Assembly: GCF_018320785.1 (NCBI RefSeq)
Contig: NC_054876.1
Span: 8,992,707-9,056,706 of the forward strand
Length of the DNA: 64,000 nucleotides
Direction of reading: 5' to 3'
Source of the DNA: Cheilinus undulatus
Taxonomy: Eukaryota > Chordata > Actinopteri > Labriformes > Labridae
Of the stretch, positions 28,741-59,270 are shown in pieces. A program made the translations under genes and the position numbers. Within the stretch, counting starts at the first letter, position 1. The number at the start of each line of letters is the position of its first letter. The notes under the pieces are model-generated. The model made no database searches. It saw only the letters and a program-made list of their open reading frames with translations, and was not told the origin of the DNA.

Positions 28741-28871
28741 CCAAGAATAGAAGTGGGATTGTGAAGAGAAAGTCACTGGAGACATCTGATCAACCAAGAG
28801 AGAAATTTGTCACTGATTTTTATATTAGGTACAATTTCTTTTCATAATATCAAAACAAAAAAAAGCTATAA

Positions 28872-33191: not shown

Positions 33192-33894
33192 CTTTAAGAC
33201 ATTCAGACTATGCTTCACCTATTGTGGATTCCCTATTAGTAACTGGAAACGTGCTGAACCACATGTATCAGTACGTATGAAACACTTAAACATAATTTTA
33301 AGACAACCATTTATACATTCATTTACTAGAAAAATGACAATTATTTACTTATACCCATATTAAATGACAGAATACCTGGTAGAGCCGCTTGAAATCTAGT
33401 ACGTATGGATGTTTGGGATTTTCTTCCTCAGCTTGCTCACGTTCAGCACTTTGTGGTTACAGCCCTCTTACCAGCACAGACACAGGATCACAGCAGATGG
33501 ATGGATCACATCAGCCTCTCCTTACAACTGACAGAACTGATAGAGGTATAGATACATAGATACATAAATCATTGATTGAAAAACAACAATAATTTTTTTT
33601 TTTTTGTCATATTATTCTTAAATAATTTCACTTTCTGAAGAAAATGGTGGAAACTATTTGGTTTTTTAAAACATTATTCATTTTCAAAACAAATCAACAC
33701 CACCAAATAAACCTGGTCCTGTTCTAGTAAACCATCCTTTTTATTTCAATGAGAAGCCATTTAAGTAATACGTCTGTAACTCCTTAAAAAAACAAGGTAT
33801 TTGTCAAAACCTGAAATCTGAGAAAGATCCTATAAAAACAGAAAATCAACGCATAATTTCCCAACAGAAATATTTAATATATGTGATTATAGAT

Positions 33895-34672
33895 CAGTGA
33901 TACTCAACGTGTGGCTCTGGAGCCACATGTTGCTCTCTTGTGATTATTTGTGGCCCTTTTATGTCTTAGTCTAAAACATTATTCCCCCAGAAAACCTTAA
34001 AAAAAGGGAAACTTTTTTGCCCCTTTTTACCCATTTAAGCTTCCTTTTGTCATTAAATACCACTTTTTGCCTACCTTTTGCCCATTTTTGCCACTTATCG
34101 CCAATTTAAGCTACCTTTTGCTATTAAATACCCTTTTATCCCATTTTTTTGCCACGTTGTTCAAATTTTTGCCACTTTGATCCCATTTTGATCCCAATTT
34201 TCGTCCACTTGTCGCCCATTTAAGCTGCCTTCTGCCATTAAATACCACTTGCTTCCCCATTTTCCCCCCACCTTTATCTCATTTTTGCCCTTTTCACCAT
34301 TTTATGTTCATTTAAACACACGTTTGTCATTAAACACCACTTGTTTCCTACTGCTTTTTGCCCATTTTAGTCACTTTTCACTCGTTTCTTGTGTAATTTT
34401 TGCCACTTTTGGACCTTTTCTTGCCACCTGTAAGTCATTTTCTTATGACTTCTCCCCCATTTTTGCTACTTCCTGAAATTTTTCCTCATTTCCACCCCTT
34501 TTTCATCCATTTTTGCTGCTTTTTGAACAATTTTGCCATCTTTAACTTGTTTTTTCACTACTTCCAAAGTCTTTTTTTTGCCACTTTTCACCACTTAGCT
34601 TGATTGTGGCTCTTGCAAAGATATCTTTCAACAATTTGGCTCTCTGGTTGAGCAGGCTTGAGTAACCATACT
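33895..34672 (-). mobile_element. hAT-like element (family Y) in unit 1
   Basis: The left end CAGTGATACTCAACGTGTGGC and the right end region (CAATTTGGCTCTCTGGTTGAG) match the ends of the 37606-43985 composite. The interior is the TTTTTGCCCATTT-type degenerate minisatellite, about 250 bases longer than in the unit 2 copy at 48544. The right end is slightly decayed. Confidence 0.65.
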
Positions 34673-35306
34673 ATAGTTGTTTCACAACAGAAGCTACATG
34701 TTGTATTTCCAGTCAGTCAATAGAACAGATACCCTTCAAGCCAGTCAGACTAAAGCAGCCATATGGTTGCTTTAGTTGTTTAACAGATCATTAAAAGTCA
34801 TTATCTTACCTAGTAGATTAGTTTGTCTCGATTATATGAGCCTTATGTGAAAATATCCTGTGTATACTCATAAGTCAATATACATTTAAAATACCAGCTA
34901 CACCCTGTTCATAAATGGGTCTGATGGAAAACACAATTTAGCCTAATATTTCACATAAAGTTAAATAATAACCTGTCTATTAGTCTTTTCAGATCTCCAT
35001 TAACGTTTGCATTACAGCAGCCTATCTTCCTGGGGTCTGCTCAATTCCAGTGACCAGGGTCCGACATTAACGTTTGCCCGAATGCCCGGGGCAACTTCAA
35101 AAAGCCCACGGGCAAGCAAAACTTGCTCAATGCCAGTGACAATACTAAACATTTTAATATGAACATCTAAAAGCCTCTTATTCTAGCAATTAAAATATTA
35201 AATTTGTTATTGTGATGATCTCCGTTGGTCATCTTCAGCCTAAATGACAGGAGTCAGTAAAGCTTTTACACACTGACATAACGGTCGTAGCTCAAACGTC
35301 AAACGG

Positions 35307-35751
35307 TCGTTTTACTACTAATAGACAGGTGAATACTTATTTACCTGATGCAGCCGGCCTCACAGACGTATCCCTGTGTGTTTTGGTATTGTTTCGTCCG
35401 TTTTTTCAGGTGTGTTTAACATCCCCAGTCCTGCTTCTGAACAGGCTATCACCGCATTGACTCACCTAACAGGCAGAGGTTAGCGTTAGCCACATTAGCC
35501 CGCTATGGTACCTGTGGGCAACTTAAGCCCCGCCCCTTCTTTATTATTGGTCCACTTGGCGGGCTTGTGACGTCATAGATCAAAGGAACGTAACACATAC
35601 CACCACTTGAAAACATCTATACTATATATCTATAATATCAATACTATATATATACTGAAATATCAGGATATATTGGATCAGTGAAATTTGTCACTACTTT
35701 GAGTTTTAGGTCAAAACACTTCTTTAAATATACCTAAAATAAGAAATAAAA
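35307..35751 (+). promoter_or_regulatory. Probable promoter and 5' leader of the unit 1 protease
   Basis: A GC box (GCCCCGCCCC, near 35527), an inverted CCAAT box (ATTGG, 35546-35550) and a consensus CRE (TGACGTCA, 35568-35575) lie within 50 bases. TATA-like runs follow near 35625-35655, about 100 bases before the ATG. The 75-base leader just upstream of the ATG is shared with unit 0. The segment from about 35307 to 35580, with the GC box and CRE, is missing from unit 0. No experimental support. Confidence 0.5.
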
Positions 35752-37506
35752 ATGGGTAACTGTTTTGGCCAAGACAAACTCAAACAAGAGGAAGAAGACT
35801 TTTATATCCAAAGTCCATATTCCAGTTTTACAGAGGACCAAGACTCTTTCAATAACAATGGAGTCCCTAAAACATCTAAAAAACCCCGCTTTTGGAAAAA
35901 GTGGTTCAAAAGGAAGGAGGATCAACAGACAACTGTGTGGGAAATAAAAACACAGGGAGCTGCAGCGCCACCCTCTGCCACGAAACCAAAATATGACAGC
36001 ACCGAGACAATCATTGACCTTCCTTCTTCGAGTGCTCCAACGCCCTCACAAGTCCCATCAGCAGGTCACAGCGGAAGCCTTCAGATCGACACGGTCAGTC
36101 TGCTGGACTCTGAATCAGTGGCAACATCATCCCTCATAGGATCCCTTAGTGAGGAGCTAATCTGCCTCAATGATGAGAAAAACAAAGAGTTTGAGGTTAG
36201 AGAAGCTCCAGTCACCAACAGCGACGCCAATAAGGAAGATGTTGAACAATCAGGATTATCAAACCCTGATTTTAAACAGGAGCCTGAGGGTGGAGAGGGT
36301 GAAGCTAAGGAGGCTTCACTGAACCCCCAGAACACTGAGGATCCTGAGGGTGAAAATAGCCAAGTTTATGATGGAGCTTTTGGAGACAACAAGAACAAGA
36401 AGACACACTGGATAAACACTGACCCTCTCCCCACCAATAATCCAAAGCCCCCATTCATCAGCCCAGCAGGCCATGGTGGAAGCATTCACTCCAGCACCAT
36501 CAGTCAGCTGGACTATCCACCATCTGTGAAAAAACCCGTCCCGATCCATGAGCTTACCTGTCTCGGGTTCCCAAACCTGGCACAGACGTGCTACATGAAC
36601 TCGACTCTGCAGGGTCTGCTGTCTCTGGAGCCTTTTGTAAAAGAGCTCTACAACCAGGAAATGGTTTGGAGCTCTCATCCAGAGACAGAGATCTTCAGAG
36701 TGTTCAGTGAAGTACATGTGTCTAGGTCTGCTGGCAATGAGGCAGGGAAGAGGAAGATTCTGGCTACATTCAAGTCAGTTGTGGCTGAATGTAACCCAGA
36801 ATTTGAGGGCAATGATCAAAAAGATGCTCATGAGTTCCTCAGCTGTGTGCTGGAACTCATGAGGTCGCCATCATTGCACCTACAAGCAGAGGCCATGAGT
36901 TGGGGCTTAAATTACACCTGCCCCGTCGAAGCAAGCATTGTCTTTCAGATGCAGAACACGAGAACCTGCGTGGGATGTGGATCTCAATCCACAAGGAATG
37001 AGGACTTTGTCAATCTGTCCTTGGACCTATCTCAGGGATACTGTGTGAGCAGCTGCCTGTCTGCCTACATGAAAGAGACGCAGATTGACTTCAGATGTCA
37101 ATGTGGCGCTGAAGTGTCAACCCAGAGGTGGTCGTTCTTAACGCAACCAAATGTACTGATCCTGCAGCTGCAGCGATTCAGGTATACCAAGTCCTACCGT
37201 CTGGAGAAGGTACAACGGCCAGTTGTGATATCCCAGAATCTGCTTCTGAACCAGAAGTCCTGCGTCAACCAAGAGACAGCCACTTCTTACTCTCTGGTGA
37301 GCATGGTCAATCATCTGGGCTCAGGAGCAGAATATGGACATTATATCTGCGATGCTGCCTACAGGCCAAAAGGTTCAGTGAACAAGAGGGACTGCTGGCT
37401 GACCTACAACGACAGGGAAGTCAGCGAAACGACCAGGCAAATGGTCTGCCGCTCGAGACGTAAGACGGCCTACCTGCTTTTCTATGAAAGGGACCAAACA
37501 AACTAA
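35752..37506 (+). CDS. Ubiquitin-specific protease (C19), USP37/USP29-like, myristoylation-type N-terminus (copy 1)
   Basis: A 584-codon intronless gene. The start MGNCFGQ has Gly2 and Cys4 placed as in N-myristoylated and palmitoylated proteins. Residues 43-55 (KKPRFWKKWFKRK) are strongly basic and aromatic, as in membrane-binding patches. Residues 60-260 are a low-complexity acidic, Pro/Ser-rich linker. The protease domain begins near 268: Cys box GFPNLAQTCYMNSTLQGLL with catalytic Cys280 and oxyanion Asn275, DAHEFLSC, a zinc ribbon (Cys406, Cys409, Cys449, Cys451), and a His box with His530 (EYGHYICDA) and Asn553/Asp554 (TYND). All catalytic residues are present, so it is likely an active deubiquitinase. 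Substrate unknown. Retrogene origin or loss of introns is possible. No polyadenylation signal lies between the stop and the hAT insertion at 37606. Confidence 0.9.
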   Translation: MGNCFGQDKLKQEEEDFYIQSPYSSFTEDQDSFNNNGVPKTSKKPRFWKKWFKRKEDQQTTVWEIKTQGAAAPPSATKPKYDSTETIIDLPSSSAPTPSQVPSAGHSGSLQIDTVSLLDSESVATSSLIGSLSEELICLNDEKNKEFEVREAPVTNSDANKEDVEQSGLSNPDFKQEPEGGEGEAKEASLNPQNTEDPEGENSQVYDGAFGDNKNKKTHWINTDPLPTNNPKPPFISPAGHGGSIHSSTISQLDYPPSVKKPVPIHELTCLGFPNLAQTCYMNSTLQGLLSLEPFVKELYNQEMVWSSHPETEIFRVFSEVHVSRSAGNEAGKRKILATFKSVVAECNPEFEGNDQKDAHEFLSCVLELMRSPSLHLQAEAMSWGLNYTCPVEASIVFQMQNTRTCVGCGSQSTRNEDFVNLSLDLSQGYCVSSCLSAYMKETQIDFRCQCGAEVSTQRWSFLTQPNVLILQLQRFRYTKSYRLEKVQRPVVISQNLLLNQKSCVNQETATSYSLVSMVNHLGSGAEYGHYICDAAYRPKGSVNKRDCWLTYNDREVSETTRQMVCRSRRKTAYLLFYERDQTN

Positions 37507-38345
37507 CCAAGATGAGCAGAGCAGGCTATGAAATCTGGAGGAACTACAGGACACACAAAAAGATGTTCAACAAAACCCTCATGAATTACAGTCCACAGTC
37601 GAGAGCAGTGTTACTGAACCAAAGAGCCAAATTGTTGAAAAATATATTTGCAAGAGCCACAATCTAAGAGGTGAAAAGCAACATTAAAATAAGTCAAAGA
37701 TGGTGACTAAAATGGGCAAAAATCAGAAAAAGCTGGGCAAAAATGGAAAAAGTGGCATTTAATTGCAAAAGGCAGCTTAAATGGGCGAGAAGTGGCAGAA
37801 AAGGACAGAAAATTGCAAAAAGCAGGATAAAAGTGACAAAAGGAAGTGGAACAAATCAGCTTAAGGCAGCAAACCTGGGAGAAAAGTGGCAGAAAAGGAC
37901 AGAAAGTGGCAGAAATTGATGAAGTGGCAAAAAAAATGAATTACTGGTGGCAAAAATGGTCCAAAAGTGGTGAAAACATGGAGAGAATTGAGTGACAAGT
38001 GCCTGAAATGGGCAAAACTCAGATAAAAGGTTGCAAAAGGCAGCTTAAATGGGCGAGAAGTGGCAAAAAGGGGCAAAAAATTGCAAAAAGCAGGATAAAA
38101 GTGACGGAAAGAAGTGGCACAAATCGGCTTAAAGTGGCAAACACTGGGAGAAAAGTGGCAGAAAAGGACAGAAAGTGGCAGAAATCTGTGAAGTGGCAAA
38201 AAAAATAAATTACAGGTGGCAAAAATGGTCCAAAAGTGGTGAAAACATGGAGAAAATTGAGTGACAAGTGACTGAAATGGGCAAAAAACAGAAAAAAAGG
38301 TGGGAAAAATCAGCAGTCTCTTAGCTTCACTGTTAGTGTGACCGA

Positions 38346-38981
38346 ATGGCTGCTGAGGAGGACGCAGGTGGTTTAACGTGGCCAGTAATCAATACTGATC
38401 AAACAAGACTTCACTTTTTTGGACATGGTCAACTTACTCTGTACACTGCCTGCTCGTTTAAAGGACAAATTAAAAATGGGAAAACAAAAAGTGATTCACA
38501 ATATTCAACACAGCATGGGAACGGGTGCATGCCAAGTTCTATATTGGTACTGCTACTCCTGGCAGGTGGTATACATCTCAGTCCTTGCCCACATATGGAT
38601 CGACCATTCAGCTCTATCACATCAGATGTGCTTCATACAAGACCAACAGAGGACATGATCCCACTTGATGGGCAGGATTTTGCGGGAAGGACAATGGTGG
38701 AGGCCACGCAAGATGTGTTTGGAGATGAGCCGCAACACCTGTTGGTAATGAAGCAAGACCTGCGCCACGTCCACGAGGCTCTGCTTGGTGTGAATCACGG
38801 GGAGATTTATGAATCTTACTGCCCAAATGTAGCCAAGTGCAACCTGGCTGGTGAGTCTGCTCAACTTGACACACACACATTTATGGAGACAGAAATCAAA
38901 CACGCTGCGTGCGGCGCGCACACAAACAAACAATCTGAGCCGAAGGGACGGACATGGATCATGCTACAGTGCATTCACTAG
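38346..38981 (+). other. Unidentified 211-codon open frame inside the composite element
   Basis: An uninterrupted frame starting MAAEEDAGGLTW. It contains a short hydrophobic run SSILVLLLLAGGIHL near residue 65-79 and a segment DGQDFAGRTMVEATQDVFGDE. A good splice donor (CTG|GTGAGT) lies at about 38851, so the last part may be intronic in the source gene. A second frame, 38954-39373, overlaps its end. I do not recognise either. The unit 2 copy is altered near its end. It may be a captured host fragment or part of another transposon; function is not implied. Confidence 0.3.
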
Positions 38982-39257
38982 ACTTTCACAAACTGTCGGA
39001 GCTGCCAATTAAGGCTGAAATGGAACCCAATAACACATTAGGGCAACAAAAAGAAGAACACAAACTCTCGGATCCAAAAGACGGGGCTGTACCAGAGCAC
39101 ACTGCTGCAGCGCATCAGCACGCAGGCTTGGGGAGGTCTGTGTGCCACGCAGCGCAAAAGCAAAAACAGTTGTTGTTTTGTCAGACAGTAAATCATGCCA
39201 GAGTGCTATGGGATTTAAAATCAAAACCTAAATCTGTCCTAATCAAGGACAGATTTA

Positions 39258-40663
39258 CACCGCGTTCCACATTATTATGCAACGACGCTTTTTCTCTGAT
39301 AAATATCAGAGGTTTCAGCAATATGGGAAAGAAAAAGGATCTCTCTGCTGCTGAAAAGTGTCAAATAGTGTAATGCCTTGGACAAGGAATGAAAACATTC
39401 GATATTTCAGGAAAAATTAAGCATGATCATCGTACTGTGAAGAAATTTGTGGCTGATTCAGAGCACAGACGGGTTTGTGCAGATAAAGGCATAATGAGAA
39501 AGGTTTCTGACGGACAAATACATCAGATTAAGAGAGCAGCTGCTAAAATGCCATTACAAAGCAGCAAACAAGTATTTGAAGCTGCTGGTGCCTCTGGAGT
39601 CCCGCCAACCTCAAGGTGTAGGATCCTCCAGAGGCTTGCAGTTGTGTATAAACCTACTATTCAGCCACCCCTAACCAATGCTCACAAGCAGAAATGGTTG
39701 CAGTGGGCCCAGAAATACATGAAGACTCATTTTCAAACAGTCTTGTTGACTGATGAGTGCCGTGCAGCCCTGGATGGTCCAGATGGAGGAGTAGTGGATG
39801 GTTGGTGGATGGCCACTATGTCCCAATGAGGCCAGGACGTCAACAAGGAGGGGGCAGAGTCATGTTTGGGCCGGAATCATGAGGAGAGAGCTGACAAGCC
39901 CCTTTAGGGTCCCTGAAGGTGTGAAAATGACCTCGGCAAAGTATATAGAGTTTCTGACTGACCACTTTCTTCCATGGTACAAAAAGGAATCGTGCCTTCT
40001 GTAGCAAAATTTTCTTCAAGCATGACAATGCTCCATCTCATGCTGCAAAGAATACCTCTGTGTCATTGGCTGCTATGGGCATAAAAGGAGAGAAACTCAT
40101 GGTGTGGCCCCCATCCTCCCCTGACCTCAACCCTACTGAGAACCTTTGGAGCATCCTCAAGCTAAAAATCTATGAGGGTGGGAGGCAGTTCACATCAAAA
40201 CAGCAGCTTTGGGAGGATATTCTGACATCCTGCAAAAAAATTCTAGCAGAAACTCTCCAAAAACTCACAAGTTCAATGGATGCAAGAATAGTGAAGGTGA
40301 TATCAAAGAAGGGCTCCTATGTTAACATGGAACTTGTCCTGTTAAGATGTTTTTGATTGAAATAGCTTTGATTTCAGTAAATATGACCCTCTGATGCTGC
40401 AATTTCTACAAATGACCATTTTCAGTCCTTTAGAACCTATAAAATGTTTTAAAAAGCTGTTGTGCTTAATAATGTGGAACAGTGCATTTTGAGGTTTTTA
40501 TTATTTTTTTTTTAATAATTTTTGTCATTATAAAGTTTGCTCAAAACCATTTGAATTATGCTCTAATGGCTGATGACTTGAAAAATATTCTGACCGTCAT
40601 TTGCATTAATATTTAGGAAAATCAGAGAAAAATATAATTTGCATAATAATGTGGAACGCGGTG
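39258..40663 (+). mobile_element. Mariner/Tc1-type transposon with intact ends and dead transposase (unit 1)
   Basis: The ends CACCGCGTTCCACATTATTA and their reverse complement at the right form inverted repeats of at least 24 bases, flanked by TA on both sides (39256-39257, 40664-40665). The transposase frame starts at 39323 and is broken by a stop near 39370, another after WWMATMSQ near 39829, and later shifts. Recognisable parts are the helix-turn-helix region (KKFVADSEHRR), the first Asp (LLTDECR), the second (FKHDNAPSHAAK) and the Glu box ([12 protein letters not shown]). Length 1406 bases. Confidence 0.85.
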
Positions 40664-40671
40664 TAAATGTC

Positions 40672-43571
40672 CCCTCCCTGAGCTGCCACCTTATCGTGGT
40701 GGAGGGGTTTGCGCGTCTCAATGATCCTAGGACCTATGTTGTCGAGGGCTTCATGCCCCTGGTAGGGTCTCCCAAGGCAAACAGGTCCTGGGTGAGGGAC
40801 CAGACAAAGTGCGGCTCAAAAAAAACAAAACAAAACAAAAAAAATCCTCATATGGCAGAGCAGTAGGACGGTCTCCACTCTCCCTTGCCCGGACGTGGGC
40901 CACCGGGGCCCCTCCTGGAGCCAGGCCTGGGAGTGGGGCTCGATGGTGAGCGCCTGGTGGCTGAGCCTGCACCCATGGGGCCCAGCCGTGCACAGCCCAA
41001 AGAACCAACGTGGGACCCCACTCCCATGGGCTCACCAGCCATAGGAGGGGCCATAGAGGTCAGGTGCAATGTGAGCTGGGTGGCAGTCGAAGGCGGGGAC
41101 CTTGGGGGTCCGATCCTCGGCTGCAGAAGCTGGCTTTAGGGACTTGGAATGTCACCTCTCTGGCGGGGAAGGAGCCTGAACTTGTGCGTGAGGATCAACG
41201 GTACCAACTAGATATAGTTGGTCACACCTCAACGCACAGTTTAGGCTCTGGAATCAATCCTCTTGAAAGGGGTTGGACTCTTTAACACTCTGGAGTTGCC
41301 CTTGGTGAGAGGTGCCGAGCAGGTGTGGGCATACCGACTGCCCCTGGGCTGGCAGCCTGTACATTGGGTTTAACCCAGTGGACGAGAGGGTAGCCTCCCT
41401 CCACCTTCGGGTGGGGGGACGGGTCCTGACTGTTGTTTGTGTGTATGCACCAAATGGCAGCACAGAGTACCCACCCTTTTTGGAGTCGCTGGAGGGGGCG
41501 CTGGAGAGCGCTCCTTCTGTGGACTCCCTCACTCTGCTGGGAGACTTTAATCCCCACGTGGGCAATGACAGTGAGACCTGGAAGGGAGTGATTAGGAGGA
41601 ACACACCCCCCGATCTGAACCCGAGTGGTGTTCTGTTGCTGGACTTTTGTGCTCGTCATGGAATGTCTATAACGAACACCATGTTCAGGCATAAGGGTGT
41701 TCACAAGTGCACTGGGCACCAGGACACCCTAGGTCACAGTTCGATGATTGATTTTGTAGTCGTAACAACGGACTTGCGGCCACATGTCCTGGACACTCGG
41801 GTAAAGAGAAGGGCAGAGCTGTCAACTGATCACTACCTGGTTGTGAGTTTGCTCCGCTGGTGGGGGAGGATGCCAGTCAGACCTGGCAAGCCCAAACGTA
41901 TTGTGAGGGTCTGCTGGGAATGTCTAGCGAAGTCCCCTGTCAGAAGGCGCTACCGTCAAGCTGAAGAAGGAGTCTTATCGGGCCTTCTTGGCCTGTGGGA
42001 CTCCAGAGGCAGCCGACAGGTATTGGCAGGCCAAGCGGTTTGCAGCTTCACAAGTTGCCAAGGCAAAAACTTGGACGTGGGAGGAGTTCGGAGAGGCCAT
42101 GGAGAATGACTTTCGTACAGCTTCAAGAAGATTCTGAACCACCATCCGGCGTCTCAGGAGAGGAAAGCAGTGTGCTGTCAACACCTTGTATGGTGGAGAT
42201 GGGGACGCTGTTCACCTTGACTCAGGATGTTGTGGGTCGGTGGAAGGAATACTTCGAAGACCTCCTCAATCCTATCAACACGCCTTCCAGTGAGGAAGCA
42301 GAGTCTGGGGACTCGGGTGTGGGCTCTTCTATATCTGGGGCCGAGGTTGCCGAGGTGGTCAAAAAACTCCTCGGTGGCAGGGCCCTAGGGGTGGATGAGA
42401 TCTGCCCTGAGTTCCTCAAGGCTCTGGATGTTGCAAAATCACGTGGACATCAGGGACAGTGCCCCTGGATTGGCTGACTGGGGTGGTGGTTCCCCTCTTT
42501 AAGAAGGGGAACCGGAGGGTGTGTTCCAATTATAGGGAGATCACACTTCTCAGCCTCCCTGGAAAGGTCTATTTGGGGGTCCTGGAGAGGAGGGTCCATC
42601 AGATAGCTGATCCTCAGATACAGAAGGAGCAATGTGGTTTTCGTCCTGCCCGTGGAACAGTGGAACTGCTCTACACTCTCGGTAGGGTCCTGGAGGGTGC
42701 ATGGGAGTTTGCCCAACCAGTCTACATGTGTTTTGTGGACCTGGAGAAGGCATACGACCGTGTCCCTCGGGGAATCCTGTGGTGCCAGACCCCCTGATAA
42801 GGGCTGTCCGGTCCCTCTATGACAGGTGCCAGAGCTTAGTCCTCATTGCCGGAAGTAAGTCGGACTCGTTTCCGGTGTGGGTTGGACTCCACCAGGGCTG
42901 CCCTTTATCACTGGTTCTGTTCATAACTTTCATGGACAGAATTTCTACGCGCAGCCAGGGCATTGAGGGGGTCCAGTTTGGTGGCCTTAGGATCAGGTCT
43001 ATACGTTTTGCGGATGATGTGGTTCTGTTGGCTTCATCAGGCCGTGACCTACAGCTCTCTCTGGAATGGGTCGCAACCATGTGAAGCGGCTGGGATGAGA
43101 ATCAGCACCTCCAAATCTGAGGCCATGGTCCTCAGTCGGAAAAGGGTGGAATTCCCTCTCCAGGTTAGGAATGAGATCCTGCCCCAAGTGGAAAACTTCA
43201 AGTATCTCGGGGTCTTGTTCACGAGTGAGGGAAGAATGGAGCGGGAGATTGACAGGCAGATCAGTGCGGCGTCAGCAGTGATGCGGTCTCTGCATTGGTC
43301 TGTTGAGGTGAAGAAAGAGCTGAGTCGAAAGGCGAAGCTCTCGATTTACCGGTCGATCTATGTTCCCACCCTCACCTATGGTCATGAACTGTGGGTTGGG
43401 ACCGAAAGAACAAGATCACGGATACAGGCAGCTGAAATGAGTTTCCTCAGGGTGGCCGGGCTCTCCCTTAGAGATAGGGTGAGAAGCTCGGCCATCCGGG
43501 AGAGACTCGGAGTAGAGCCGCTGCTCCTCCACTGTCTATCAAATAAATAAATTCAAATTCAAATTCAAAAA
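40672..43571 (+). mobile_element. APE-type non-LTR retrotransposon, degenerate (unit 1)
   Basis: It begins with the GAGCTGCCACCTTATCGTGG leader typical of a common teleost LINE. It encodes endonuclease pieces (LGTWNVTSLAGKEPELVRE, then [28 protein letters not shown] at 41312-42000). Reverse transcriptase follows (FKKGNRRVCSNYREITLLS, VDLEKAYDRVP, LHQGCPLSLVLF, and the catalytic FADDVVLLAS near 43010). Several frameshifts and an internal loss between endonuclease and RT make it inactive. The 3' end is an AATTC repeat near 43550. The clade (RTE-like or related) is not certain. Confidence 0.85.
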
Positions 43572-43985
43572 ACATGAAAGAGCGGCAAGAAAGGAAATTA
43601 ATGGAATTTAATTGCAAGAGGCAGCTTAAATGGGTGAAAAGTGGCAAGAAACAGGCAAAAAAAATTGCAAAAAGCTGGATATAAGTGTCAAAAACGTGCT
43701 AAAAGCAGTAAAAGGGGAATTAAAGTAGCAAAAAATTGCAAATGAGGGCAATGGAAATATGCAGACAAAAAAAGAGGTTGACAATTTAGTTTGACAATAT
43801 AAGCCAAATGTATAAATGTGGAAAACAGACCGAATAATGCTACTTGCGATGGATAATTTCTGAGGTAAAATTTTCCTTTTGAAGGTTTTTTGGGGGAATA
43901 ATGATTCAAATTAAGACATAGAAGATTTACAAATCACAACAAAAGAGCCACATGTGGCTCCAGAGCCACATGTTGAGGATCACTG

Positions 43986-44784
43986 GTCTAGAGTCACCTG
44001 CAGGGACAGACACGAGGCTTGAGTGCAACAGAGACATTTTGTTACAGATACTGTTTGTAATTTTTATGGACGGGATCTCAGGACCTCATTGCATTACCTT
44101 CACAGTAAGTTTCATAGGATTTTATTGTGAAACATTTTACAGTAAAATACTGTGAACTCAATGTAAAACTCGTGCAATTAGGTAGCCAGTAATTTATTGT
44201 AAATTTCACAGTAAATAACTCTACTACATGACCTAAACGCATTTGTATTGCAATTAAAAGAAAAAAAGAAAATAGCAATTTTTTGTCTGTTGTCATATTA
44301 CATCAAACTGCTTTTACAACATAACATTACCATAATGATTCATATTTAAAATCAAATTTTTAAAAACACTTTTTAAGAAAATAAATAGTGCAAAGGCATA
44401 CAAACCATTGATGAATCTTTGTTTAAAGTCTTTGTTGTCAGATGACTTCTCAGGCAGCATCAGTAAATCATACATATCATACATATAATCTTACATAGAT
44501 TTGTTTTTTTCCCATTTTAAATCCCAATCAGTTGTAAAAATTTGACATTGGAAGCAAATTAAAAAGCAATGTTGTAACAACTAAGTTGAAATAAAGATGA
44601 AAATAAGTCCATTCACTCCTACTGTACTATAAAGATGCTTGAGTACAGCGGAAAAAGTCACTGCCACAGTAATGGCCAGTGAAGTCCATTAAAGAAAGTG
44701 TGTGCATCATGTGAAGTGTGTAAGCCTTGTTGAAAACAATGAAAGCGAAGAGGGCTGCAGTTACCCCATCATCAACTCCTCCCC
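43986..44784. repeat. Unit 2 left part
   Basis: This repeats 30963-31725 with about 27 extra bases near 44066. It includes the palindromic TTTTACAGTAAAATACTGTGAA motif near 44140 and an AATAAA near 44380. Nothing on the plus strand looks coding. Confidence 0.5.
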
Positions 44785-44895
44785 CTCCTCAGCACAGATC
44801 CACACAGTCCACCATGACTGAAACTGGAATGTTCCTGGTAAAGGGCGTCTTCTGGCCTTGACCGGCTGTACTGGGCAAGGACTTCAAAGTTCACA
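44785..44895 (-). pseudogene. Broken terminal exon-like segment (unit 2)
   Basis: Same as the unit 1 segment at 31730-31841: acceptor TTTTAACAG, then VNFEVLAQYSRSRPEDAL, then the same frameshifting extra T. The shared defect shows it was broken before units 1 and 2 were duplicated. Confidence 0.45.
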
Positions 44896-45080
44896 CTGTT
44901 AAAACAAGTCAAAACAATATAGAAGTAAATAGAAATAACAGACTCAGATATATAATCAAAGCTCCAAATCCTCATCAATTTTTGTTTGAAAAATCTGGGT
45001 GTAAATGTAGTATAATCATTTCCTGGTTAGAGACCCATAAAAGCATCTTTCCTATCATACAGTAAAAAACTAACTCATAC

Positions 45081-45162
45081 CTGCTCCATTGCAACGAAAT
45101 GGTCCACCATCTCTACAGCAGAGGGGCAGCAGGATTAGTGCATGGTATATCATGGTCAATAT
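45081..45162 (-). other. Exon-like segment with a possible signal peptide (unit 2)
   Basis: Copy of 32029-32110 with the same acceptor and donor. The frame reads MIYHALILLPLCCRDGG, with a Gly in place of the second Asp and an Arg for a His further on. Confidence 0.3.
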
Positions 45163-45186
45163 CTGTAAGAAACAGGTCCTTTAAGA

Positions 45187-46236
45187 TAGTTGTTCTCAAC
45201 GTTGGGACCGGGACCCCTTTGGGGGTGGAGAGACTCTGAGAGTGGGTCTCCAGATGCCTTCAAAAACATAGGGATATTTTTAAATTACACTATTGCCACA
45301 TCATACCAATTTTGCTCAATTCTAACCCATTTTCATACATTTTTCCTATGAATTTTGTCAATTTCAACACATTTTTGCCCCTTACAACCCATTTTAAACC
45401 CTTTCCACCACTTTTTTTCAGCCTGTTTTTGTCACTTCTAAACCAATTCTTGCCACTTTCTGCCTATTGTTGCCTCTGTTGACCCAGTATTGCCACTACC
45501 AACCTTTTAAGCCTGTATTTTGCCCATTTTAACCACATTTCATTATGTGATATGCTTCTTTGTGCCAGTTATACCAATTTCTGCCAAATTCTGCCTATTT
45601 TTCCACTTCAGTTACCCCTTTTGCCAGTTTATATCAATTTTTTTTACCTATTTCACCAAATTTCCACCCGGTTTTATCACTTTAAAGCCACTGCAGCCAG
45701 TTGTTAGTCCCCTTTTACCACTACTTATGTCGATTTTGCCTCTTTAACCCATTTTTTGGTTATTCTTTACCACTTTTATCAAATTTTTGCCACTTCTAAG
45801 CCATGTTGTCTACTTTTAAATCCAATTTCACCACTTTTTCCACCAATTTTGCCATTACTACCCCATTTTAGCAAATTTTAAACCATTTTCATTCTGTTTT
45901 CAACAAAAGGGATTTACATTTTGAAGAAGGCCGGTAACTACACAAATGAAGAAAAATATATTTGTTTATTTCATAAGTGGTTATTATTCAAGTGAAATAT
46001 AAGATATGTATATTACAGCTTATCTTTTCAATGGGCCATGTTTTGCTGACCTCCATGGTCCCCCAGTTTGGCCGGGTCCCATAAGGCTTTCCCATTTATC
46101 CTCCCTTTATGGGCAGCCTTGTTTGCACATTACTATTCTTGATGGATGTGTTCAACCACCCACAGGTACAGTGGGGGTCCCTGGTCTCTGGCACCTTTAT
46201 TTGGGGGTCGCGGACTGAAAAGGTTGAGAACCCCTG
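45187..46236 (-). mobile_element. hAT-like element (family X) in unit 2
   Basis: Copy of 32143-33191 with the same ends and an intact right target repeat CTTTAAGA at 46237-46244. The minisatellite interior differs by a few bases. It was carried along by the unit duplication, not inserted separately. Confidence 0.75.
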
Positions 46237-46312
46237 CTTTAAGACATTCAGACTATGCTTCACCTACTGTGGATTCCCGATGAGTAACTGGAAACGTGCT
46301 GAACCACATGTA

Positions 46313-47916
<1,604 letters not shown>

Positions 47917-48543
47917 TATCAGTACGTATGAAACACTTAAACATAATTTTAAGACAACCATTTATACATTCATTTACTAGAACTACGACAATTATTTACT
48001 TATATCCAAATTAAATGACAGAATATCTGGTAGATCTGCTTGAAATCTAGTACGTATGGATGTTTGGGATTTTCTTCCTCAGCTTGCTCACGTTCAGCAC
48101 ATTGTGGTTACAGCCCTCTTACCAGCACAGACACAGGATCACAGCAGATGGATGGATCACATCAGCCTCTCCTTACAACTGAAAGAACTGATAGAGGTAT
48201 AGATACATAGATACATAAATCATTGATTGAAAAACAACAATAAATTAATTTTTTGTCATATTATTCTTAAATAATTTCACTTTCTGAAGAAAATGGTGGA
48301 AACTATTTGGTGTTTTAAAACATTATTAATTTTCAAAACAAATCAACACCACCAAATAAACCTGGTCCTGTTCTAGTCAACCATCCTTTTTATTTCAATG
48401 AGAAGCCATTTAAGTAATACGTCTGTAACTCCTTAAAAAAACAAGGTATTTGTCAAAACCTGAAATCTGAGAAAAATCCTATAAAAACAGAAAATCAACG
48501 CATAATTTCCCAACAGAAATATTTAATATATGTGATTATAGAT

Positions 48544-49070
48544 CAGTGATACTCAACGTGTGGCTCTGGAGCCACATGTTGCTCTCTTGTGATTATTTGT
48601 GGCTCTTTTATGTCTTAGTCTAAAACATTATTCCCTCAGAAAACCTTAAAAAAAGGGAAACTTTTTTGCCCCTTTTTACCCATTTAAGCTTCCTTTTGTC
48701 ATTAAATACCACTTGTTTCCTATTTTCTGCCATGTTTGCCACTCTTGCCTGCTTTTTGCCCATTTTAGTCACTTTTCACTTGTTTCTTGTGTAATTTTTG
48801 CCACTTTTGGACCTTTTCTTGCCACCTGTAAGTCATTTTCTTGTAACTTCTCCCCCATTTTTGCTACTTCCTGAAATTTTTCCTCATTTCCACCCCTTTT
48901 TCATCCATTTTTGCTGCTTTTTGAACAATTTTGCCATCTTTAACTTGTTTTTTCACTACTTCCAAAGTCTTTTTTTTGCCACTTTTCACCACTTAGCTTG
49001 ATTGTGGCTCTTGCAAAGATAACCTTTAACAATTTGGCTCTCTGGTTGAGCAGGCTTGAGTAACCATACT
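48544..49070 (-). mobile_element. hAT-like element (family Y) in unit 2
   Basis: Copy of 33895-34672 with the same left end and a shorter minisatellite core; about 250 bases present in unit 1 are missing near 48705. Loss of repeat units by slippage or unequal exchange is the simplest explanation. Confidence 0.65.
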
Positions 49071-49679
49071 ATAGTTGTTTCACAACAGAAGCTACATGTT
49101 CTATTTCCAGTCAGTCAATAGAACAGATACCCTTCAAGCCAGTCAGACTAAAGCAGCCATATGGTTGCTTTAGTTGTTTAACAGATCATTAAAAGTCATT
49201 ATCTTACCTAGTAGATTAGTTTGTCTCAATTATATGAGCCTTATGTGAAAATATCCTGTGTATGCTCATAAGTCAATATACATTTAAAATACCAGCTACA
49301 CCCTGTTCATAAATGGGTCTGATGGAAACCACAATTTAGCCTAATATTTCACATAGTTAAATAATAACCTGTCTATTAGTCTTTTCAGATCTCCATTAAC
49401 GTTTGCATTACAGCAGCCTATCTTCCTGGGGTCTGCTCAATTCCAGTGACCAGGGTCCGACATTAACGTTTGCCCGAATGCCCGGGGCAACTTCAAAAAG
49501 CCCACGGGCAAGCAAAACTTGCTCAATGCCAGTGACAATACTAAACATTTTAATATGAACATCTAAAAGCCTCTTATTCTAGCAATTAAAATATTAAATT
49601 TGTTATTGTGATGATCTCCGTTGGTCATCTTCAGCCTAAATGACAGGAGTCAGTAAAGCTTTTACACACTGACATAACG

Positions 49680-50129
49680 GTCGTAGCTCAAACGTCAAAC
49701 GGTCGTTTTACTACTAACAGACAGGTGAATACTTATTTACCTGATGCAGCTGGCCTCACAGACGTATCCCTGTGTGTTGTGGTATTGTTTCGTCCGTTTT
49801 TTTCAGGTGTGTTTAACATCCCCAGTCCTGCTTCTGAACAGGCTATCACCGCATTAACTCAGCTAACAGGCAGAGGTTAGCGTTAGCCACATTAGCACGC
49901 TATGGTACCTGTGGGCAACTTAAGCCCCGCCCCTTCTTTATTATTGGTCCACTTGGCGGGTTTGTGACGTCATAGATCAAAGGAACGTAACACATACCAC
50001 CACTTGAAAACATCTATACTATATATATACTGAAATATCACAGGATATATTGGATCAGTGAAATTTGTCACTACTTTGAGTTTTAGGTCAAAACACTTCT
50101 TTAAATATACCTAAAAATAAGAAATAAAA
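49680..50129 (+). promoter_or_regulatory. Probable promoter and 5' leader of the unit 2 protease
   Basis: Same arrangement as in unit 1: GC box near 49924-49933, inverted CCAAT, CRE TGACGTCA at 49965-49972 and a TATA-like run near 50020. One short AT-rich stretch present near 35630 in unit 1 is missing. All three core motifs are conserved exactly. Confidence 0.5.
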
Positions 50130-51884
50130 ATGGGTAACTGTTTTGGCCAAGACAAACTCAAACAAGAGGAAGAAGACTTTTATATCCAAAGTCCATATTC
50201 CAGTTTTACAGAGGACCAGGACTCTTTCAATAACAATGGAGTCCCTAAAACCTCTAAAAAACCCCGCTTTTGGAAAAAGTGGTTCAAAAGGAAGGAGGAT
50301 CAACAGACAACTGAGTGGGAAATAAAAACACAGGGAGCTGCAGCGCCACCCTCTGCCACAAAACCAAAATATGACAGCACCGAGACAATCATTGACCTTC
50401 CTTCTTCGAGTGCTCCAACGCCCTCACAAGTCCCATCAGCAGGTCACAGCGGAAGCCTTCAGATCGACACGGTCAGTCTGCTGGACTCTGAATCAGTGGC
50501 AACATCATCCCTCATAGGATCCCTTAGTGAGGAGCTAATCTGCCTCAATGATGAGAAAAACAAAGAGTTTGAGGTTAGAGAAGCTCCAGTCACCAACAGC
50601 GACGCCAATAAGGAAGATGTTGAACAATCAGAATTATCAAACCCTGATTTTAAACAGGAGCCTGAGGGTGGAGAGGGTGAAGCTAAGGAGGCTTCACTGA
50701 ACCCCCAGAACACTGAGGATCCTGAGGGTGAAAATAGCCAAGTTAATGATGGAGCTTTTGGAGACAACAAGAACAAGAAGACACACTGGGTAAACACTGA
50801 CCCTCTCCCCACCAATAATCCAAAGCCCCCATTCATCAGCCCAGCAGGCCATGGTGGAAGCATTCACTCCAGCACCATCAGTCAGCTGGACTATCCACCA
50901 TCTGTGAAAAAACCCGTCCCGATCCATGAGCTTACCTGTCTCGGGTTCCCAAACCTGGCACAGACGTGCTACATGAACTCGACTCTGCAGGGTCTGCTGT
51001 CTCTGGAGCCTTTTGTAAAAGAGCTCTACAACCAGGAAATGGTTTGGAGCTCTCATCCAGAGACAGAGATCTTCAGAGTGTTCAGTGAAGTACATGTGTC
51101 TAGGTCTGCTGGCAATGAGGCAGGGAAGAGGAAGATTCTGGCTACATTCAAGTCAGTTGTGGCTGAATGTAACCCAGAATTTGAGGGCAATGATCAAAAA
51201 GATGCTCATGAGTTCCTCAGCTGTGTGCTGGAACTCATGAGGTCGCCATCATTGCACCTACAAGCAGAGGCCATGAGTTGGGGCTTAAATTACACCTGCC
51301 CCGTCGAAGCAAGCATCGTCTTTCAGATGCAGAACACGAGAACCTGCGTGGGATGTGGATCTCAATCCACAAGGAATGAGGACTTTGTCAATCTGTCCTT
51401 GGACCTATCTCAGGGATACTGTGTGAGCAGCTGCCTGTCTGCCTACATGAAAGAGACGCAGATTGACTTCAGATGTCAATGTGGCGCTGAAGTGTCAACC
51501 CAGAGGTGGTCGTTCTTAACGCAACCAAATGTACTGATCCTGCAGCTGCAGCGATTCAGGTATACCAAGTCCTACCGTCTGGAGAAGGTACAACGGCCAA
51601 TTGTGATATCCCAGAATCTGCTTCTGAACCAGAAGTCCTGCGTCAACCAAGAGACAGCCACTTCTTACTCTCTGGTGAGCATGGTCAATCATCTGGGCTC
51701 AGGAGCAGAATATGGACATTATATCTGCGATGCTGCCTACAGGCCAAAAGGTTCAGTGAACAAGAGGGACTGCTGGCTGACCTACAACGACAGGGAAGTC
51801 AGCGAAACGACCAGGCAAATGGTCTGCCGCTCGAGACGTAAGACGGCCTACCTGCTTTTCTATGAAAGGGACCAAACAAACTAA
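50130..51884 (+). CDS. Ubiquitin-specific protease (C19), myristoylation-type N-terminus (copy 2)
   Basis: Second intact 584-codon gene, intronless and colinear with the one at 35752. It differs at five residues by my comparison: Val62Glu, Gly168Glu, Tyr206Asn, Ile221Val and Val491Ile. Four lie in the linker and one is conservative in the catalytic domain. The N-terminal MGNCFGQ, the basic patch at 43-55, Cys280, His530, Asn553/Asp554 and the four zinc-ribbon cysteines are all present. Its flanks (CRE/GC-box segment upstream, composite hAT downstream) match unit 1. Both copies are therefore candidates for expression, and near identity means reads and assemblies could easily merge them. Confidence 0.9.
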   Translation: MGNCFGQDKLKQEEEDFYIQSPYSSFTEDQDSFNNNGVPKTSKKPRFWKKWFKRKEDQQTTEWEIKTQGAAAPPSATKPKYDSTETIIDLPSSSAPTPSQVPSAGHSGSLQIDTVSLLDSESVATSSLIGSLSEELICLNDEKNKEFEVREAPVTNSDANKEDVEQSELSNPDFKQEPEGGEGEAKEASLNPQNTEDPEGENSQVNDGAFGDNKNKKTHWVNTDPLPTNNPKPPFISPAGHGGSIHSSTISQLDYPPSVKKPVPIHELTCLGFPNLAQTCYMNSTLQGLLSLEPFVKELYNQEMVWSSHPETEIFRVFSEVHVSRSAGNEAGKRKILATFKSVVAECNPEFEGNDQKDAHEFLSCVLELMRSPSLHLQAEAMSWGLNYTCPVEASIVFQMQNTRTCVGCGSQSTRNEDFVNLSLDLSQGYCVSSCLSAYMKETQIDFRCQCGAEVSTQRWSFLTQPNVLILQLQRFRYTKSYRLEKVQRPIVISQNLLLNQKSCVNQETATSYSLVSMVNHLGSGAEYGHYICDAAYRPKGSVNKRDCWLTYNDREVSETTRQMVCRSRRKTAYLLFYERDQTN

Positions 51885-52723
51885 CCAAGATGAGCAGAGC
51901 AGGCTATGAAATCTGGAGGAACTACAGGACACACAAAAAGATGTTCAACAAAACCCTCATGAATTACAGTCCACAGTCGAGAGCAGTGTTACTGAACCAA
52001 AGAGCCAAATTGTTGAAAAATATATTTGCAAGAGCCACAATCTAAGAGGTGAAAAGCAACATTAAAATAAGTCAAAGATGGTGACTAAAATGGGCAAAAA
52101 TCAGAAAAAGCTGGGCAAAAATGGAAAAAGTGGCATTTAATTGCAAAAGGCAGCTTAAATGGGCGAGAAGTGGCAGAAAAGGACAGAAAATTGCAAAAAG
52201 CAGGATAAAAGTGACAAAAGGAAGTGGAACAAATCAGCTTAAGGCAGCAAACCTGGGAGAAAAGTGGCAGAAAAGGACAGAAAGTGGCAGAAATTGATGA
52301 AGTGGCAAAAAAAATGAATTACTGGTGGCAAAAATGGTCCAAAAGTGGTGAAAACATGGAGAGAATTGAGTGACAAGTGCCTGAAATGGGCAAAACTCAG
52401 ATAAAAGGTTGCAAAAGGCAGCTTAAATGGGCGAGAAGTGGCAAAAAGGGGCAAAAAATTGCAAAAAGCAGGATAAAAGTGACGGAAAGAAGTGGCACAA
52501 ATCGGCTTAAAGTGGCAAACACTGGGAGAAAAGTGGCAGAAAAGGACAGAAAGTGGCAGAAATCTGTGAAGTGGCAAAAAAAATAAATTACAGGTGGCAA
52601 AAATGGTCCAAAAGTGGTGAAAACATGGAGAAAATTGAGTGACAAGTGACTGAAATGGGCAAAAAACAGAAAAAAAGGTGGGAAAAATCAGCAGTCTCTT
52701 AGCTTCACTGTTAGTGTGACCGA

Positions 52724-53314
52724 ATGGCTGCTGAGGAGGACGCAGGTGGTTTAACGTGGCCAGTAATCAATACTGATCAAACAAGACTTCACTTTTTTGG
52801 ACATGGTCAACTTACTCTGTACACTGCCTGCTCGTTTAAAGGACAAATTAAAAATGGGAAAACAAAAAGTGATTCACAATATTCAACACAGCATGGGAAC
52901 GGGTGCATGCCAAGTTCTATATTGGTACTGCTACTCCTGGCAGGTGGTATACATCTCAGTCCTTGCCCACATATGGATCGACCATTCAGCTCTATCACAT
53001 CAGATGTGCTTCATACAAGACCAACAGAGGACATGATCCCACTTGATGGGCAGGATTTTGCGGGAAGGACAATGGTGGAGGCCACGCAAGGTGTGTTTGG
53101 AGATGAGCCGCAACACCTGTTGGTAATGAAGCAAGACCTGCGCCACGTCCACGAGGCTCTGCTTGGTGTGAATCACGGGGAGATTTATGAATCTTACTGC
53201 CCAAATGTAGCCAAGTGCAACCTGGCTGGTGAGTCTGCTCAACTTGACACACACATTTATGGAGACAGAAATCAAACACGTCGGTGCGGGCGCGCACACA
53301 AACAAACAATCTGA
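52724..53314 (+). other. Unidentified open frame inside the composite (unit 2 copy)
   Basis: Matches 38346-38981 for about 175 codons. The shortened ACACAC run near 53245 and small changes after it shift the frame, so the last 20 codons differ (DTHIYGDRNQTRR). One earlier difference replaces an Asp with Gly (EATQGVFGDE). The lack of constraint after the GTGAGT donor fits intronic sequence. Confidence 0.3.
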
Positions 53315-53633
53315 GCCGAAGGGACGGACATGGATCATGCTACAGTGCGTTCACTAGACTTTCACAAACTGTCGGAGCTGCCAATTAAGGCTGAAATGGA
53401 ACCCAATAACACATTAGGGCAACAAAAAGAAGAACACAAACTCTCAGATCCAAAAGACGGGGCTGTACCAGAGCACACTGCTGCAGCGCATCAGCACGCA
53501 GGCTTGGGGAGGTCTGTGTGCCACGCAGCGCAAAAGCAAAAACAGTTGTTGTTTTGTCAGACAGTAAATCATGCCAGAGTGCTATGGGATTTAAAATCAA
53601 AACCTAAATCTGTCCTTATCAAGGACAGATTTA

Positions 53634-55038
53634 CACCGCGTTCCACATTATTATGCAAACGACGTTTTTCTCTGATAAATATCAGAGGTTTCAGCAATAT
53701 GGGAAAGAAAAAGGATCTCTCTGCTGCTGAAAAGTGTCAAATAGTGTAATGCCTTGGACAAGGAATGAAAACATTCGATATTTCAGGAAAAATTAAGCAT
53801 GATCATCGTACTGTGAAGAAATTTGTGGCTGATTCAGAGCACAGACGGGTTTGTGCAGATAAAGGCATAATGAGAAAGGGTTCTGACGGACAAATACATC
53901 AGATTAAGAGAGCAGCTGCTAAAATGCCATTACAAAGCAGCAAACAAGTATTTGAAGCTGCTGGTGCCTCTGGAGTCCCGCCAACCTCAAGGTGTAGGAT
54001 CCTCCAGAGGCTTGCAGTTGTGTATAAACCTACTATTCAGCCACCCCTAACCAGTGCTCATAAGCAGAAATTGTTGCAGTGGGCCCAGAAATACATGAAG
54101 ACTCATTTTCAAACAGTCTTGTTGACTGATGAGTGTCGTGCAGCCCTGGATGGTCCAGATGGAGGAGTAGTGGATGGTTGGTGGATGGCCACCATGTCCC
54201 AATGAGGCCAGGACGTCAACAGGGAGGGGGCAGAGTCATGTTTGGGCCGGAATCATGAGGAGAGAGCTGACAAGCCCCTTTAGGGTCCCTGAAGGTGTGA
54301 AAATGACCTCGGCAAAGTATATAGAGTTTCTGACTGACCACTTTCTTCCATGGTAAAAAAAGGAATCGTGCCTTCTGGAGCAAAATTTTCTTCAAGCATG
54401 ACAATGCTCCATCTCATGCTGCAAAGAATACCTCTGTGTCATTGGCTGCTATGGGCATAAAAGGAGAGAAACTCATGGTGTGGCCCCCATCCTCCCCTGA
54501 CCTCAACCCTACTGAGAACCTTTGGAGCATCCTCAAGCTAAAAATCTATGAGGGTGGGGGGCAGTTCACATCAAAACAGCAGCTCTGGGAGGATATTCTG
54601 ACATCCTGCAAAAAAAATTCTAGCAGAAACTCTCCAAAAACTCACAAGTTCAATGGATGCAAGAATAGTGAAGGTGATATCAAAGAAGGGCTCCTTTGTT
54701 AACATGGAACTTGTCCTGTTAAGATGTTTTTGATTGAAATAGCTTTGATTTCAGTAAATATGACCCCCTGATGCTGCAATTTCTACAAATGACCATTTTC
54801 AGTCCTTTACAACCTATAAAATGTTTTAAAAAGCTGTTGTGCTTAATAATGTGGAACAGTGCATTTTGAGGTTTTTATTTTTTCTTTAAATAATTTTTGT
54901 CATTATGAAGTTTGCTCAAAAACATTTGAATTATGCTCTAGTGGCTGATGACTTGAAAAATATTCTGACTGTCATTTGCATTAATATTTAGGAAAATCAG
55001 AGAAAAATATCATTTGCATAATAATGTGGAACGCGGTG
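53634..55038 (+). mobile_element. Mariner/Tc1-type transposon (unit 2 copy)
   Basis: Copy of 39258-40663 with the same CACCGCGTTCC ends and TA flanks (53632-53633, 55039-55040). It shares the stop after CQIV and the stop after WWMATMSQ, showing the transposase was already dead before the duplication. Confidence 0.85.
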
Positions 55039-55046
55039 TAAATGTC

Positions 55047-57975: not shown

Positions 57976-58390
57976 AGCATGAAAGAGTGGCAAAAAGGGA
58001 AATTAATGGAATTTAATTGCAAGAGGCAGCTTAAATGGATGAAAAGTTGCAAAAAACGGGCAAAAGAAATTGCAGCAAGCTGGATAAAAGTGTCAAAAAT
58101 GGGCTAAAAGCAGTAAAAGGGGAATTAAAGTAGCAAAAAATTGCAAATGAGGGCAATGGAAATATGCAGACAAAAAAAGAGGTTGACAATTTAGTTTGAG
58201 AATATAAGCCAAATGTATAAATATGGAAAACAGACTGATTAATGCTACTTGCAATGGATAATTTCTGAGGTAAAATTTTCCTTTTGAAGGTTTTTTTGGG
58301 GAATAATGATTCAAATTAAGACATAAAAGAGTTACAAATCACAACAAAAGAGCCACATGTGGCTCCAGAGCCACATGTTGAGGATCACTG

Positions 58391-59152: not shown

Positions 59153-59261
59153 TCAGCCCAGATCCACGCAGTCCACCATGACTGAAACTGTAACGTTCCT
59201 GGTGAGGGCATCTTCTGGCCTTGAATGGCTGTATAGCTGAGCAGGGACTTCAAAGTTCACA
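59153..59261 (-). other. Intact terminal exon-like segment (unit 3)
   Basis: After an acceptor (TTTAAACAG) the minus strand encodes 35 residues starting VNFEVPAQLYSHSRPEDAL and ending MVDCVDLG, then TGA. The homologous pieces in units 1 and 2 lack one codon and carry a frameshift. This copy at the edge of the array may be the last exon of the original gene, whose upstream exons would lie at higher coordinates. I could not find them or name the protein. Confidence 0.4.
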
Positions 59262-59270
59262 CTGTTTAAA

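Follow-up and report, generated by a model that had tools for sequence, protein, structure and literature searches.

Duplicated ubiquitin-specific proteases of Cheilinus undulatus with a candidate N-terminal membrane anchor

Built-in membrane anchors are known from few deubiquitinases. Does a pair of genes in the fish Cheilinus undulatus encode such an enzyme? The pair, two near-identical intact genes for ubiquitin-specific proteases (USPs) of 584 residues, lies in a 64,000-nucleotide stretch of contig NC_054876.1 (positions 8,992,707 to 9,056,706; hereafter, the window). A sequence-only reading of the window had described both genes, each with an MGNCFGQ start, a basic aromatic patch spanning residues 43-55, a long acidic linker and then an entire USP catalytic domain; both open frames were recovered exactly where that reading had placed them, with all of these elements in each copy. 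The explanation that best accounts for the observations, and that we consider probable, is an N-myristoylated USP tethered to membranes by a two-part N-terminal anchor, namely the head and the patch. The features on which the argument turns are the following:

35752-37506, plus strand: intact USP gene, copy 2, 584 amino acids (aa) in a single open frame
50130-51884, plus strand: intact USP gene, copy 3, 584 aa in a single open frame
35707-35742, plus strand: sequence upstream of Met1 of copy 2, with an acceptor-like TTTTAG at -45 and in-frame stops at -45, -27 and -12
35752-35769, plus strand: head codons 1-6 (MGNCFG) of copy 2; the same in copy 3 at 50130-50147
35881-35919, plus strand: basic-aromatic patch, codons 44-56 (KPRFWKKWFKRKE) of copy 2; in copy 3 at 50259-50297
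35920-36543, plus strand: disordered acidic linker, codons 57-264 of copy 2; in copy 3 at 50298-50921
36544-37503, plus strand: USP catalytic domain, codons 265-584 of copy 2; in copy 3 at 50922-51881

Catalytic domain, head and patch

By every feature tested, including the UCH domain, the catalytic residues and the fold, the window proteins are USPs (peptidase C19). The Pfam model UCH (PF00443) matches residues 272-578 over profile positions 2-254 of 254 (E 4e-43), with scores of 148.4 and 147.4 bits for the two copies against a gathering cutoff of 23.9. Alignment to USP12 places the active site at Cys280, His530 and Asn553-Asp554, and zinc-ribbon cysteines are found at Cys406/409/449/451. 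According to one study, the third catalytic residue of USPs may be Asp, Asn or Ser and the next is mostly Asp (PMC10867860). In an AlphaFold2 model, the predicted local distance difference test (pLDDT) score is 90 or higher for 249 of the 584 residues, nearly all after residue 270, and below 50 for residues 1-259. Foldseek gave a probability of 1.00 for the 50 matches listed, of which those described are USPs or SAGA Ubp8; among solved structures, USP12 and USP46 come first by sequence. USP37 proper was considered for the pair and rejected: USP37 possesses an N-terminal PH-like domain and ubiquitin-interacting motifs within its USP domain, and the Pfam scan returned only two UCH models, plus one below-cutoff match in one copy, with residues 1-259 lacking confident structure.

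Copies 2 and 3 share 579 of 584 residues (4 synonymous and 5 nonsynonymous substitutions); because both lie inside one tandem duplication (34351-44918 against 48749-59284, 97.0% over 10,615 columns), they count as one observation and not as independent evidence. A search of the genome (1.17 Gb, 46 contigs) gave at least 55 matches, only the best candidates being scored so that counts are lower bounds. Four further intact paralogs were found on two other contigs, C5 and C17, with 61-81% identity. The C5 gene encodes 573 aa (81% identity over residues 116-584 and 67% over 1-78), and the three C17 genes encode 592, 592 and 606 aa (61-63% over matched parts). Together with the window lineage, C12, these form the main lineages compared. 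Every one of the six intact genes, spread over three contigs, starts with MGN[CYF]F[GC], and no Met precedes this start in the open frame; the heads read MGNCFGQDKLK (two genes), MGNCFGCRNSR, MGNYFCHHRRQ (two genes) and MGNFFGYQRRQ. Such heads fit the N-myristoylation pattern PS00008, which describes Gly2 after the initiator Met in a permitted context; the window pair was matched to the pattern directly, and the other intact genes were compared by eye. Cysteine occurs at position 4, 6 or 7 in five of the six, its place shifting from gene to gene.

The second element, the patch KKPRFWKKWFKRK, occupies residues 43-55 in both window proteins, and none of 300 shuffles reached its score. FWKKWF is invariant in the six intact genes, all of which keep FWKKWF[K/N]R, and the patch region carries a net charge of +6 to +8 over 18 residues. 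In the 207 residues of linker after the patch, 15 Lys and Arg residues stand against 32 Asp and Glu residues in copy 2 and 15 against 34 in copy 3; the linker, disordered and acidic, is about 190-225 residues long. A search of the PDB with the N-terminus yielded two chance-level matches only. As a separate observation on the linker, the protein P0001 has two copies of an AGH[SG]GS motif (residues 104-109 and 239-244), and a GHGG-like motif stands immediately before the USP domain in many of the relatives aligned; part of the linker may thus have been duplicated internally.

Selection was compared between the C12, C5 and C17 lineages as the ratio of nonsynonymous to synonymous divergence (dN/dS) by the Nei-Gojobori method. 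Residues 1-56 have a ratio of 0.18-0.35, as against 0.58-0.96 in residues 57-264 and 0.17-0.30 in residues 265-584, a contrast read without a significance test and over few synonymous sites (about 3 in residues 1-6 and about 5 in residues 44-56). Between C17a and C17b, the corresponding values are 0.18, 0.20 and 0.08. Within residues 1-56, constraint sits in the head and the patch and the spacer evolves faster: the proportion of nonsynonymous differences (pN) between the three lineages is 0.00-0.13 in residues 1-6 and 0.12-0.19 in residues 44-56, as compared with 0.30-0.38 in the spacer (residues 7-43) and 0.20-0.30 in the linker. In the six genes, codons 2, 3 and 5 show only synonymous differences and codons 4, 6 and 7 show residue-changing ones. 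Because the site counts of head and patch are small, it is the overall pattern that carries the weight, rather than individual ratios. The dN/dS contrast suggests that purifying selection acts on the anchor elements.

On this explanation, the initiator Met would be removed and N-myristoyltransferase would acylate Gly2, while the Trp/Phe/Lys patch would stabilise binding to acidic lipids. The nearby Cys of five of the six genes could be S-acylated as an added hold. Head and patch would thereby keep the enzyme at the cytosolic face of a membrane, and the long disordered linker would let the catalytic domain reach ubiquitinated substrates in or near that membrane and strip their ubiquitin. The natural guess for the role of such a deubiquitinase is that it spares membrane proteins marked with ubiquitin; an immune role, proposed from the turnover of copies, is only a guess.

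Relatives in other fish and rival explanations

A family-profile search returned 88 proteins, of which 78 were counted as family, including P0075 (no UCH match listed, coverage 21%), and 10 (P0076-P0078, P0084-P0090) as other USPs. At the edge of the family the score falls from 191 to 114 bits, against a profile built from the family itself. Fish names are attached to 75 of the 78 members, all of them from what we take to be spiny-rayed fish, and most named relatives are annotated as usp37-like. In a tree of 68 rows (midpoint-rooted; 17 rows with an incomplete USP part dropped), the family is set apart from only 2 outgroup rows with support of 100/100. The six genes of C. undulatus form one group (100/99), and P0010 is their sister (96/93, and 98/96 in an earlier tree of part of the family that lost 13 rows to a motif rule).

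The suggestion that the family is fish-specific agrees with all 75 named members; the MGN head does not appear to be family-wide. Among the 78 relatives, 32 start with MF, the commonest type, 2 with MG (P0010 and P0048) and 40 with other residues (many of these models are apparently truncated), and 4 have no Met; MGN is absent from the listed starts. The MGNxF starts that the sequence-only reading had proposed to seek in other fish were accordingly not recovered there, either in those starts or at E of 10 or better in a search with the N-terminus. Two candidates deserve mention. P0010 has the listed start MGADNG, a candidate start only, from a contig of 3,476 bases, and in P0024 of Paralichthys an internal MGNFLSIF, at residue 33, could mark where translation really begins, which the protein alone cannot prove.

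The MF-type heads, such as MFCGLCRRQK and MFLLCCCCGK, have Cys at residues 3-10 in 15 of 22 non-redundant cases (20 of 32 overall), as compared with 16% expected from residues 11-120, and this richness in cysteine suggests S-acylation. By our own pattern, 25 of 42 rows have a Trp/Phe-Arg/Lys patch ahead of the USP domain, and the window pair accounts for two of the 25. In 200 shuffles the mean was 1.6 and the highest count 5, although shared descent inflates this contrast. The rows come from a 51-row alignment (A4) of 49 of the 78 relatives and the window pair, from which 9 rows were dropped whose USP domain is preceded by fewer than 80 residues. Against a profile of MF-type N-termini, window residues 1-120 reach 16.3 bits, just above the highest of 3000 shuffles (14.0), and the full-length window row scores 7.5 bits, below 33 of 3000 shuffles; the case for homology of the window N-terminus to MF-type N-termini is modest. 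The anchor-type N-terminus looks old in the fish family, and the myristoylation-type head looks lineage-specific and fixed in the lineage of C. undulatus. It is possible, though we put it forward only tentatively, that the ancestral head was cysteine-acylated and gave way to an N-myristoylated one, with the Trp/Lys membrane patch retained, within an expanded family of membrane-tethered deubiquitinases of spiny-rayed fish.

Several other explanations were weighed. Translation might start upstream through splicing, leaving MGN internal. An acceptor-like TAG does stand 41-46 bases upstream of the head in copies 1a and 1b (broken copies described below), 2 and 3 and in the C5 gene, where it would fit an intron in the 5' untranslated region, and the frame of the C17 genes is open for 12-26 codons upstream of the head. 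This open stretch contains no Met, however, and in C12 and C5 in-frame stops intervene between the acceptor-like site and the ATG; the nearest is at -12 in copies 2 and 3, -3 in copy 1b and -24 in C5, and after the last stop there is one weak AG in C12 (at -10) and none in 1b or C5. With in-frame stops just before it and at most one weak AG after them, Met1 is the likely start in the window lineage, which argues there against the upstream exon that the sequence-only reading had named as a refutation; in C17 an upstream coding exon is more conceivable, as noted below. Overall, an upstream start appears highly improbable. Still further from what we would expect, and barely credible, is that the pair are young functionless duplicates, open only through recency. 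Broken copies are many, the duplicated units are 97% identical, and the 4 synonymous changes of 9 between copies 2 and 3 are no significant excess (p 0.22); yet the dN/dS of the USP domain is low over a dS of about 0.34-0.67 between intact lineages.

The two remaining rivals accept Met1 and reassign the head or the patch. The patch may serve to localise the protein to the nucleus or nucleolus, or to bind calmodulin, with the MGN head constrained for example by N-terminal processing or protein binding and the enzyme nuclear. Its richness in Lys and Arg and its net charge suit this, as does the usp37-like annotation of most named relatives, human USP37 being a nuclear enzyme. A nuclear signal, however, needs neither the conserved Trp and Phe nor a Gly2-Asn3-x-Phe5 that varies only synonymously, and the excess of Cys near the start of MF-headed relatives also speaks against it; we judge it unlikely. 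Alternatively, S-acylation of head cysteines, together with the patch, may anchor the whole fish family, the Gly2 of the MGN lineage being unacylated or merely assisting. Both the MF-type heads and the Cys of five of the six C. undulatus genes are in its favour, whereas the Cys moves and is missing in C17c and Gly2 stays constant, and we consider it improbable.

The N-myristoylated, membrane-tethered USP remains the explanation that we prefer, and a number of observations weigh against it. The patch could equally serve as a nuclear signal or calmodulin site, and its helical amphipathicity is unexceptional (390-547 of 5000 shuffles reach its hydrophobic moment). Its pN is below that of the linker, though not by much (0.12-0.19 against 0.20-0.30), and its low dN/dS rests partly on few, mostly changed synonymous sites; the scarcity of such sites bears on the whole contrast. 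In the close pair C17a-C17c, dN/dS is 0.52 for residues 1-56, 0.79 for 57-264 and 0.21 for 265-584. C17c has no nearby head Cys, and the C17 start is less certain because the upstream frame is open and CAG stands directly before GACA-ATG. All 12 heads recognised in the genome, six of them from broken copies, have Gly2 (Met1 in 11 of 12), a biased count since heads were recognised by likeness and the genome scan demanded MGN; this bias does not touch the six intact genes, and four remnant loci without a recognisable head (three on C10, one on C11) were left out. Beyond C. undulatus, searching with only the first 102 residues gave 67 candidates, none at E 10 or better, and 76 of 78 relatives do not start with MG. 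The six intact paralogs retain both Gly2 and the patch, down to 61% identity and at low dN/dS; in the listed starts of these relatives, many of them from apparently truncated models, Gly2 is rare.

Duplicated and broken copies in the window and the genome

The window contains a third, broken copy (28217-30870) that the sequence-only reading had not mentioned. It consists of a head piece followed by a second disrupted gene with a different head:

28217-28730, plus strand: broken copy 1a, with an MGNCFGQ head and a stop at codon 13, ending within the linker (end placed by eye)
28872-30870, plus strand: broken copy 1b, with an MGNFFGC head, a 19-nt insertion at codon 43 and stops
33264-46316, no strand: tandem unit with copy 2
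47915-59284, no strand: tandem unit with copy 3

A degenerate search for MGNCFGQ, allowing one mismatch, matched at 28217, 35752 and 50130, all exactly (0.01 expected by chance). Copy 1b is interrupted by unrelated sequence at about 30006-30193. Compared with copy 2 over codons 360-585, the C-terminal part of the USP domain, 14 of its 29 changes are synonymous, above expectation (p 0.015, transition weight 4); in the middle part, they are not in excess (7 of 30, p 0.77).

Elsewhere in the genome, broken copies or remnants occur on C5, C17, C15, C10 and C11, and matches on C2, C6 and C14 (33-53%) were taken as other USP genes. The heads of broken copies, those in the window included, read MGNCFGQ, MGNFFGC, MGNCFGF, MGNCL (frameshifted), VGNWFG and MGSCFGC. 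On C15 (L023:3721), the remains of a USP gene are followed, not preceded, by a lone broken head, MGSCFGCL; heads and bodies have thus become separated there, rather like copy 1 of the window. A genome search with the MF-headed Sander protein P0003 gave at least 41 matches, no locus beyond the earlier search and no separate MF-type gene. As part of the preferred explanation, the family has probably spread through the gain and loss of copies, both tandem and dispersed.

Transposon remnants lie inside the tandem duplication. Between the two units is a Tc1/mariner-type transposon (46362-47866; inverted arms of 163 nt, 98% matching) with an open 338-aa transposase frame at 46571-47587 on the minus strand, in which Sleeping Beauty helix-turn-helix (HTH) and DDE_3 domains were matched. 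Behind copy 2, the stretch 38337-43550 holds a decayed Tc1-like transposase (a weak, below-cutoff Pfam match, otherwise recognised by eye) and a broken non-long-terminal-repeat (non-LTR) retrotransposon with endonuclease and reverse transcriptase pieces; its frames were scanned behind copy 2, and the stretch is duplicated 3' of copy 3 at about 52715-57920. Just downstream of each intact gene is a tandem repeat of about 270 nt, 90% alike (37763-38314 and 52141-52692). Further away, on the minus strand, an exon at 23517-23894 matches the start of glycosyl hydrolase family 35, fragments near 17300, 16500 and 13100 resemble by eye a beta-galactosidase-type gene possibly reaching about 11000, and 9045-9845 is a reverse transcriptase fragment of another retroelement. 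Scans with Rfam and NCBIfam gave no match.

Comparison with known systems

The closest known proteins are the usp37-like proteins of spiny-rayed fish (e.g., P0003 of Sander lucioperca), which belong to the same family by profile search and tree. Like the window pair, they have a head, a Trp/Arg patch, a variable linker and a USP domain in this order (15 aligned); they differ in that MF heads, often with Cys, are commonest and that several linkers are much longer. The anchor-type patch thus recurs across the wider fish family, hidden by usp37-like labels. If the proposed anchor is real, a duplicated family with a constrained anchor and head variation among fish would offer a system for studying how membrane targeting decides which proteins are spared.

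With USP12/USP46 and other USPs (5k16, 5l8h), the window proteins share the common USP fold, the Cys and His boxes and the zinc-ribbon cysteines, at 24-26% identity to the USP12/46 structures. The head, patch and linker are unmatched, structure matches beginning at residue 251 or later. USP12/46 and plant UBP3/4 have possible MG-type alternative starts, and USP32 is prenylated. In Src-type and Arf-type proteins, Gly2 acylation is combined with a basic or aromatic second signal, and Arf heads resemble MGN-x-F-G. The putative anchor of the window proteins is similar in its Gly2 head and conserved basic second signal near the N-terminus; unlike those proteins, it is joined to an unrelated catalytic domain, with the patch about 40 residues from the head.

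In open-access literature on deubiquitinase lipidation and the fish family, represented mostly by titles and with subscription papers largely outside it, no myristoylated USP was found, nor did the available parts of PMC8357983 and PMC12203935 contain anything on one. The view that lipid anchors are non-standard for USPs nevertheless needs care, as palmitoylation of USP5 has been reported (PMC12523187). The nearest parallel in idea is the proteasome subunit Rpt2, whose N-myristoylation (PMC6568242) anchors proteasomes to membranes and is described as a general mechanism (PMC10686573). In both cases, ubiquitin machinery would be placed at membranes by a Gly2 myristate, with no homology claimed between a proteasome subunit and a USP. 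On the tentative reading given above, in which the head was replaced, lipid-anchored enzymes would edit ubiquitin directly at membranes, in opposition to the myristoylated proteasome.

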